A stretch of 64,000 nucleotides of DNA from Hyunsoonleella jejuensis. Its GTDB lineage: Bacteria > Bacteroidota > Bacteroidia > Flavobacteriales > Flavobacteriaceae. The notes beneath the pieces were generated by a model. That model worked only from the letters and a program-made list of their open reading frames with translations, did not search any database and was not told where the DNA came from. The stretch is from contig NZ_FOFN01000001.1 of assembly GCF_900111025.1 (NCBI RefSeq), positions 806,001 through 870,000 on the forward strand, written 5' to 3'. Both the position numbers and the translations under genes were made by a program. This document shows, in pieces, positions 26,187 to 29,425 of this stretch; position 1 is the first letter of the stretch; every line of letters begins with the position of its first letter.

Positions 26187-26300
26187 ATTCCGATTGGTAT
26201 CGGAATCGTATCGAAACCCAAAAAGATTTCTAATCTATTAAGTGTTCTCGATACAATTATTTTTTCGCATTAGCTTAAAAATAGTCGCTCGGACTCATAT
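26187..26300. repeat. Hairpin and degenerate TTCTCGATAC-type repeat before mgtE
   Basis: ATTCCGAT (26187-26194) pairs with ATCGGAAT (26199-26206). From 26244, GTTCTCGATACAATTATTTT and later TCGCTCGGACTCAT resemble a decayed copy of the TTCTCGATAC...ACTCGAACTGAC repeat that flanks the GIY-YIG gene near 29 kb. Confidence 0.5.
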
Positions 26301-27874: not shown

Positions 27875-28810
27875 ATGAAAATACTTCACCTAGATACTAA
27901 TCATGAACTTTTACTAAATCAACTTAACGATTTAGGGTTTGAGAATCATGAAGATTACACCTCTTCAAAAGAAGAAGTTGAAGCTAGAATCGCTAAGTAT
28001 GATGGTATTATTATTCGAAGTCGATTTTCCATCGACAAACAATTTCTAGATGCTGCCACAAGTCTAAAATTTATTGGTCGTGTAGGTGCAGGACTAGAAA
28101 ATATAGATTGTGGCTATGCCGAAAAAAAAGGGGTATATTTAATTTCGGCACCGGAAGGTAATAGAAACGCTGTTGGCGAACATGCTTTGGGAATGTTACT
28201 ATCACTTTTTAATAAGCTAAATAAAGCAGATAACGAAGTACGACAAGGCAAATGGTTGCGTGAAGATAATAGAGGTATTGAGCTTGATGGGAGAACCGTT
28301 GGGTTAATTGGTTATGGTAATATGGGAAAAGCTTTTGCAAAAAAATTACGTGGTTTTGATGTTGAAGTGATCTGCTACGATATTAAACCTAATGTTGCAG
28401 ACGACAATGCTAGACAAGTTTCACTTAAAGAATTTCAAGAAAAAGTAGATATAGTAAGTTTACATACGCCACAAACACCTTTAACACTAAACATGATAAA
28501 TACAGGTTTTATCAATCAGTTTAAAAAATCATTTTGGTTAATAAATACAGCAAGAGGTAAAAGTGTGGTTACTTCAGACTTAGTTAAAGCATTGAAATCT
28601 GGTAAAATTCATGGCGCAGGACTCGATGTTTTAGAATATGAAAAAAAGTCCTTTGAGAGTTTGTTTTCTTCTGAGATGCCAGAGGCTTTTCAATATTTAA
28701 TCAATGCTGAAAATGTATTGTTATCGCCACATGTTGCAGGTTGGACAGTTGAAAGTAAAGAGAAGTTGGCACAAACTATAGTAGATAAGATTAAAGCTAA
28801 ATTTTGCTAG
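27875..28810 (+). CDS. D-isomer-specific 2-hydroxyacid dehydrogenase (SerA-like)
   Basis: NAD-dependent oxidoreductase of about 311 residues. The start at ATG 27875 gives MKILHLDTNHELLLNQLNDL. The NAD-binding loop GLIGYGNMGKAF is followed by the catalytic set: Arg in NTARGKSVV, the Glu-containing GLDVLEYE, and His in LLSPHVAGWT. There is no C-terminal ACT domain. It may be a short phosphoglycerate dehydrogenase or act on another 2-keto acid; no serC or serB is adjacent, so the substrate is left open. Confidence 0.88.
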   Translation: MKILHLDTNHELLLNQLNDLGFENHEDYTSSKEEVEARIAKYDGIIIRSRFSIDKQFLDAATSLKFIGRVGAGLENIDCGYAEKKGVYLISAPEGNRNAVGEHALGMLLSLFNKLNKADNEVRQGKWLREDNRGIELDGRTVGLIGYGNMGKAFAKKLRGFDVEVICYDIKPNVADDNARQVSLKEFQEKVDIVSLHTPQTPLTLNMINTGFINQFKKSFWLINTARGKSVVTSDLVKALKSGKIHGAGLDVLEYEKKSFESLFSSEMPEAFQYLINAENVLLSPHVAGWTVESKEKLAQTIVDKIKAKFC

Positions 28811-28969
28811 TTCTCGATACAAAATTTTTCGTGCCTCAAAATTACTCGAACTGACATTCAGATAAATCAATAGCTATCGTCGCATCACTCGAACTGACAA
28901 TAGGCTAAATTAACTTACAGTTGTCACTTCGAGTGGTTTCGACTTTTTGTCGAAATTGTATCGAGAAGC
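28811..28969. repeat. Left palindromic repeat of the GIY-YIG unit
   Basis: A composite: the partial unit TTCTCGATACAAAATTTTTC...TACTCGAACTGACATT (28811-28856), then the full 96-base repeat from CTATCGTCGCATCACTCGAA to ATTGTATCGAGAAGC. It starts on the base after the dehydrogenase stop. Confidence 0.88.
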
Positions 28970-28984
28970 TTCAAAAGTTTAAAC

Positions 28985-29278
28985 ATGAAAATTTACAACG
29001 TTTATATTTTAAGATGTTCGGATGACACTTATTATACAGGCATCACTTCAAATTTAGATAAAAGACTGTTAGAGCATCAGATAGGAAAACATGCAGATAG
29101 TTATACTTTTAAACGAAGACCTGTTTCGTTGGAGTTTTACGCAGAATTCACAAATGTTGAATTGGCCATTTCTTCAGAAAAGCAAATTAAAAAATGGTCT
29201 AGGGCTAAAAAAGAGGCTTTAATTAATGGTGAGTTTGATAAGTTGCCAAATCTGGCTAAAAAGAAGTTTAGAAAATAA
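28985..29278 (+). CDS. GIY-YIG nuclease-domain protein
   Basis: A stand-alone GIY-YIG domain of 97 residues related to the UvrC N-terminal and UPF0213/URI families. The motif parts are YNVYILRCSDDTYYTGIT (the GIY-YIG strands here read VYI...YTG), DKRLLEHQIGKHADSYT with the catalytic Arg, and a Glu in LEFYAEF, with an ISSEKQIKKWSRAKKEALI helix. It is followed by a basic tail. The gene starts 15 bases after the left repeat and ends just before the right one. Such small nucleases are frequent in Bacteroidota; their targets are unknown. Confidence 0.9.
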   Translation: MKIYNVYILRCSDDTYYTGITSNLDKRLLEHQIGKHADSYTFKRRPVSLEFYAEFTNVELAISSEKQIKKWSRAKKEALINGEFDKLPNLAKKKFRK

Positions 29279-29283
29279 TATGG

Positions 29284-29397
29284 TTCTCGATACGATGCTC
29301 CTATCGTCGCATCACTCGAACTGACAATAGGCTAAATTAACTTACAGTTGTCACTTCGAGTGGTTTCGACTTTTTTGTCGAAATTGTATCGAGAAGC
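29284..29397. repeat. Right palindromic repeat of the GIY-YIG unit
   Basis: TTCTCGATACGATGCTCCTA leads into the 97-base repeat, identical to the left copy apart from six rather than five T residues between GTTTCGAC and GTCGAAAT. It is followed 28 bases later by the LuxR-type gene. Confidence 0.88.
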
Positions 29398-29425
29398 ATA
29401 TAAAGATTTTTATTAGTTTTAATCC

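Follow-up and report, generated by a model that had tools for sequence, protein, structure and literature searches.

We consider it likely that the analyzed locus represents a REP family with its own cognate structure-specific nuclease, an arrangement that resembles the REP/RAYT systems but is built on an unrelated enzyme, and for which we infer both cutting and mobilization. The locus is located in a window of 64,000 nucleotides, the whole stretch of DNA analyzed here (G000:C2:806001-870000), which belongs to a 3.48 Mb genome in 11 contigs. Several characteristic features of the system were observed: (i) the GIY-YIG nuclease genes are flanked by shared repeats, (ii) the type of the repeat is coupled to the type of the nuclease, (iii) the repeat units are dispersed in the genome, (iv) the stem of the repeat hairpin covaries, and (v) both empty and repeat-only alleles of the site exist in related genomes. 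The initial annotation had proposed a selfish or domesticated repeat-nuclease unit comparable with REPs and RAYTs, and this proposal is supported by the flank association and by the empty and repeat-only alleles.

The nuclease gene (28985..29278, plus strand) is located between genes encoding a 2-hydroxyacid dehydrogenase and a LuxR-type regulator, and its product is a 97-aa protein with a UPF0213-like fold. This assignment is based on Pfam, phmmer, homolog conservation, and an AF2 model. The ORF 28985-29278 matches the Pfam GIY-YIG domain (PF01541) at E 3e-16, the closest sequence found by phmmer is the UPF0213 protein 1zg2 (E 2e-11), and the nearest folds of the AF2 model (pLDDT 80) are UPF0213 proteins, Slx1, and the nuclease domain of UvrC. 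The UPF0213/YhbQ family and Slx1 are the closest known proteins by sequence (UPF0213) and by fold. The UPF0213 proteins of solved structure are annotated as hypothetical; Slx1 cleaves branched DNA in a structure-specific manner together with a partner. Searches with PADLOC and NCBIfam gave no meaningful name for the window nuclease. The catalytic Y, Y, G, R, H, and E residues of the GIY-YIG superfamily are present in the window protein together with the fold: Y7, Y17, G19, R27, H31, and E65 are intact and are conserved in 99-100% of 163 homologs. The dN/dS ratio among the GIY-YIG homologs is ~0.03-0.10, with dS saturated. The nuclease is under strong purifying selection, and its active site is intact and constrained.

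Comparison of the repeat copies confirmed that the gene lies between direct repeats of 96 and 97 nt (28874..28969 and 29301..29397, neither assigned to a strand), as stated in the initial annotation; the right copy equals the left one plus one extra T, inside a T run, and this is their sole difference. Both copies are imperfect palindromes and include the inner T-loop hairpin TTTCGAC-T5/6-GTCGAAA. Each repeat at the locus is a head-to-head pair of a dispersed unit, referred to here as family A. The right direct repeat makes up the last part of a complete dimer (29284-29397) composed of two complete units in head-to-head orientation, one on the minus strand (29284..29326; TGTCAGTTCGAGT-hairpin (GATGC/GCATC)-GTATCGAGAA) and one on the plus strand (29349..29395; TGTCACTTCGAGT-hairpin (GTTTCGAC-T6-GTCGAAAT)-GTATCGAGAA). 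The predicted fold of this dimer as single-stranded DNA has an energy of -24.8 kcal/mol (z -5.6), and none of 200 shuffled sequences was as stable. The left direct repeat, in which the first 17 nt of the complete dimer are missing, was resolved by repeat comparison into a truncated minus-strand unit (28874-28899) and a complete plus-strand unit (28922..28967). It is preceded by an extra half unit on the minus strand (28811..28856), which is situated at the left border of the nuclease insertion and is missing from the repeat-only allele of G005. The decayed relative previously suggested at 26244-26300 is real: a solitary family A unit at 26245..26300 (minus strand) has a local score of 45, compared with a maximum of 35 for 2000 random stretches of the window.

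To describe family A, we collected 35 units from the fetched loci using a pattern that fixes the ends TGTCANTTCGAGT and GTATCGAGAA and leaves the hairpin between them free. The unit starts with the invariant TGTCA(G)TTCGAGT, which is followed by a hairpin with a covarying stem and then by the invariant GTATCGAGAA; a TCGA:TCGA foot helix is predicted beneath the hairpin. The first six stem pairs are formed in 200 of 210 cells for these 35 units (shuffled maximum, 174). For the 23 distinct units with loops removed, the stem covariation score is 0.46 versus 0.155 in shuffled data, the signal collapses once the partners are slid by one column, and two-sided changes are found at 5 of the 6 stem pairs. 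The ends are invariant and the stem covaries, so what is preserved is the sequence in the former and the structure in the latter. In alignment A2, whose first row is a consensus used as a search probe, only the database loci were analyzed. Re-making of stems by quasi-palindrome correction is an alternative to selection, and the observed counts fit either process.

BLAST and pattern searches located the family A unit at ~10 other places in G000, mostly intergenic and either single or in inverted pairs, which excludes chance or a purely local duplication; at least 3 family A dimers occur in this genome besides those next to the nuclease gene. This dispersed, mainly intergenic, and mainly head-to-head dimeric occurrence is that of the CGTC/TGTC-tagged REP superfamily, and, as in REP/RAYT systems, most copies in one genome are located away from the nuclease gene.

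Recurrence of the layout was assessed in 80 regions from 148 Bacteroidota genomes and in a many-phyla set of 80 loci. For each gene, the best local alignment of 300 nt upstream versus 300 nt downstream was computed, with a threshold of at least 34, and genes from the same regions located more than 700 bp from the GIY-YIG gene served as controls. A shared flank repeat was detected for 65 of 84 GIY-YIG genes versus 7 of 259 controls in Bacteroidota (Fisher p 3e-44), and for 59 of 78 GIY-YIG genes versus 4 of 208 controls in the many-phyla set (Fisher p 3e-39). About a quarter of the GIY-YIG genes had no detectable flank pair in both surveys, and no flank pair was found around two other GIY-YIG-domain genes of G000 that were used as negative controls. 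The check suggested in the initial annotation, which asked for the genes next to repeat copies, came out in favor: repeats of this kind show a strong and specific tie to GIY-YIG genes in both related and distant genomes. If an intergenic palindrome had simply been duplicated locally around a small gene unrelated to it, two almost identical copies would also result; this explanation is extremely improbable, as the same layout is found in about three quarters of homologs from many phyla and the units are dispersed in G000 and its relatives, and we consider it refuted by the flank survey.

The type of repeat follows the type of nuclease. Raw flanks are inflated by synteny (for instance, the B-type flanks of G000 versus L125 score 226); hence, the coupling test was restricted to repeat segments common to both flanks at 127 loci and to comparisons between genomes. 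Under these conditions, protein similarity and repeat similarity are correlated with a Mantel rho of 0.34 (maximum of 0.22 in 1000 permutations). On the 86-row protein tree, 31 changes of repeat type are required versus 47.8 after shuffling, none of 200 shuffles being as low, and the A type needs one change. Of the 8 A-type nucleases, 7 are flanked by the sequence TATCGAGAA, compared with 1 of 157 others. The A-type loci have no neighbor genes in common; the same repeat accompanies these nucleases in seven unrelated neighborhoods. Within G000, paralogous nucleases carry unrelated repeats: the A and B repeats of this genome score 21 against each other, which is the chance level, whereas its A repeat scores 43 against that of a homolog from another genus. 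Further GIY-YIG homologs in the genus are associated with yet other palindromes.

The B-type repeats of G000 surround a second GIY-YIG gene (L024, G000:C4:521916-522203), which has a different palindrome on both sides (TGTCACACTGAGCGCAGTCGAAGTG / CACTTCGACTGCGCTCAGTGTGACA). At least in G000, G004, and G007, its neighbors are an RNA methyltransferase gene and an M48 peptidase gene, and this conserved position suggests vertical inheritance of the B-type lineage and possibly its domestication. A third GIY-YIG gene, broken by in-frame stops (L027/L085, G000:C2:1117986-1118248), was observed near GTGCCTTCGAGTGCCTCAGGCACC-type repeats.

These data bear on the explanation that small GIY-YIG genes insert in any intergenic palindrome, such palindromes being fragile cruciforms, without specific recognition. 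Such insertion would agree with the presence of different TGTCA dimers at one intergenic site in different species, an observation implying that some sites are hot spots; we nevertheless regard this explanation as quite improbable, because the repeat type follows the nuclease clade and paralogs of one genome differ in their repeats. The site in question (G000:C4:614166-614286 and the orthologous sites L286-L296) contains unrelated TGTCA-tagged dimers in different species of the genus and none in others, as if the repeat families replace each other there.

In 12 genomes of the genus, repeat copy number tracks the presence of the cognate nuclease only moderately (p 0.015 for A and 0.03 for B), and the case for coupling does not draw on this correlation. 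Repeats also occur in some relatives that lack the nuclease cognate to them, for example in G005, which contains 13 A cores and no nuclease of type A; present mobility of the repeats therefore need not depend on the nuclease.

Related genomes contain the empty sites that the initial annotation had proposed to look for. In G008, G030, and G035, the site is empty and the two neighboring genes almost touch, and at the position of the window locus G001 and G005 have a repeat-only allele with one dimer and no nuclease. The G000 allele consists of a dimer and a nuclease unit at the left edge of this dimer. The G005 allele is not simply a product of recombination between the direct repeats, since it lacks the extra left half unit, and on the simpler reading of the aligned alleles the nuclease unit appears to have been gained in the lineage of the window. 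A 9-bp sequence, TTTT(A/G)(C/T)TAG, flanks the dimer on both sides and is present as a single copy, TTTTG(C/T)TAA, in the empty sites. Comparison of the window with G008, G030, G035, G001, and G005 placed the left copy, TTTTGCTAG, at 28802..28810 (plus strand), where it includes the upstream gene's stop codon; the right copy, TTTTATTAG, is at 29408..29416 (plus strand). The two copies are identical at 9/9 positions in G001 and at 7/9 in G000. This sequence is a possible target duplication, which for one AT-rich site is only suggestive. Another A dimer of the same genome, at C3:83723, is absent in the ten relatives examined.

The REP/RAYT systems (TnpA-REP, GTAG REPs, and REPINs) resemble this locus in three respects: a dispersed palindrome flanks the gene to which it is cognate, the units are arranged in inverted pairs, and gene-less repeats are present at other sites. 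They differ in the tag, which is GTAG rather than TGTC, and in the enzyme, a Y1 HUH transposase rather than a GIY-YIG nuclease; the gene adjoining the repeats analyzed here encodes the latter and not a Y1 transposase. G000 has four matches to Y1 transposases, and the repeats might accordingly be moved in trans by RAYTs or by other IS elements, with the GIY-YIG gene as a passenger. This scenario is quite improbable, and we rejected it. The Y1 genes examined are flanked by palindromes other than those of families A and B, a passenger gene would leave the cognate coupling unexplained, and Di Nocera et al. (2013, PMC3733652) found no tyrosine transposase flanked by CGTC repeats.

A closer counterpart is provided by the CGTC-tagged REPs, which include Neisseria dRS3 and Rickettsia RPE-4/6 and which, as the authors who defined them concluded, are without a dedicated enzyme (Di Nocera et al. 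2013, PMC3733652). Like family A, these REPs have a TGTC/CGTC tag at one end, a hairpin, a short tail, head-to-head dimers, and mostly intergenic dispersal, and classical CGTC-1 units were also found in flanks of the wider GIY-YIG family. In contrast to the CGTC REPs, which are enzyme-less in the 2013 account, the repeats described here flank GIY-YIG genes, and family A has a long invariant tag and tail with a freely varying stem sequence. The unpaired TGTC tag is present in all A units, where the search pattern itself fixes it. In an unbiased scan, GTCA is the top tetranucleotide ahead of hairpins (168 of 330 GIY-YIG flanks versus 40 of 507 control flanks, p 2e-45), followed by TGTC and then by TGGA, the reverse complement of a CCA-type tail; such features characterize the CGTC/TGTC REPs of Di Nocera et al. 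The stem of 8-9 bp starting with A-T pairs, the 4-5 nt loop, and the CCA tail of these REPs recur in numerous flanks of the wider GIY-YIG family (for example, CGTCATTCCCGCGAAGGCGGGAATCCA), whereas family A differs in stem, loop, and tail.

The two elements also co-occur among genomes. A GIY-YIG match is present in 30 of 31 genomes with a classical CGTC-1 unit versus 50 of 117 without it (148 Bacteroidota genomes, p 8e-9); the same comparison by genus (21 of 22 versus 34 of 61, p 5e-4) is the safer figure, as genomes are not independent. The only CGTC-1 genome of the 31 without a GIY-YIG match at E 1e-15, G137, has 14 units, and its nuclease may be lost or divergent. The repeats are members of the published TGTC/CGTC-tagged REP superfamily or resemble it closely. 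Family A works like the CGTC REPs and is probably related to them, yet it is not a textbook member.

With regard to the mechanism, GIY-YIG homing endonucleases (e.g. I-TevI) may offer a partial parallel: the nuclease gene is located at its probable target, and empty sites exist. However, the window nuclease would have numerous dispersed repeats as its probable targets, in place of a single unique site, and the 97-aa protein is encoded without an intron or a separate DNA-binding domain. We infer that the nuclease binds its cognate repeat and cuts it, with a preference for single strands, and that cutting drives copying. It would recognize the invariant TGTCA..TCGA tag and the TCGAGAA tail at the hairpin foot, probably in single-stranded or extruded DNA, and would cut at the repeat unit or beside it. 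Repair at these breaks could copy repeat units to new sites and could allow the nuclease gene, located between repeats, to settle at sites already holding the repeat. The nuclease and the repeat would then spread and diverge together, as RAYTs and GTAG REPs do.

Another possibility is that the nuclease is a domesticated regulator, i.e. an enzyme of the host that cleaves repeat-containing DNA in single-stranded form when this DNA is incoming or exposed (for example, in natural transformation), the repeats being marks that are not currently mobilized. In line with this possibility are the strong purifying selection, the retention of the B-type nuclease at one locus in several species, and the Neisseria homolog L215, which falls within the same family tree and whose flanks carry dRS3-like CGTC units. 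GIY-YIG 'Ssn' nucleases, small proteins likewise paired with a many-copy genomic repeat, are reported in a 2025 paper to cleave repeats in single-stranded form in Neisseria, with an effect on transformation. We consider domestication the less likely reading, because the A-type nucleases accompany the same repeat in seven unrelated neighborhoods and both the repeats and the nuclease unit show lineage-specific gain at the window site; the domesticated role and a REP family with its own nuclease are compatible readings.

The initial annotation regarded the arrangement as uncharacterized. In the open-access literature we found no paper linking GIY-YIG proteins to REPs; given the reported Ssn work, the statement may no longer hold. 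Should that report be correct, this class of enzyme is a known one, and the contributions of the present analysis are its connection with TGTC/CGTC REPs, the pairing of cognate nucleases and repeats across phyla, the architecture of the A type, and the history of the site.

The associations described above suggest that the nuclease family is the partner that a widespread class of bacterial repeats had been lacking, and for the CGTC REPs, to which no dedicated enzyme was assigned in 2013, they now supply a candidate. A further generalization is tentative, and we would not yet call it probable: small GIY-YIG nucleases may serve the TGTC/CGTC-tagged REPs in general as their dedicated enzyme and constitute a second system of REP replication, RAYT-independent and widespread in bacteria, in which a homing-type nuclease reads the conserved tag at the base of a hairpin that varies freely and spreads the repeat together with its own gene. 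If so, two unrelated enzyme types, HUH transposases and GIY-YIG nucleases, would each maintain a class of bacterial hairpin repeats. The question can be tested with small proteins and short oligonucleotides, and the family offers many nucleases with distinct, predictable target hairpins.

Two further observations concern the genomic distribution of such elements. In G000, the Y1 (RAYT-like) genes L064 (G000:C2:208442-208627) and L062 (G000:C2:279864-280202) have their own palindromes nearby (GCTAGCGCTCGTTTGTAACGAGTGCC and GACCTGCAAGGTTTTGAAAACCTTGCAGGTC, respectively), and two repeat systems thus appear to coexist in this genome. In G124, three tandem GIY-YIG genes located ~419 bp apart (G124:C86:45033-46188) are each followed by a CGTC-1 unit, an array that looks like a tandem amplification of the repeat-nuclease unit.
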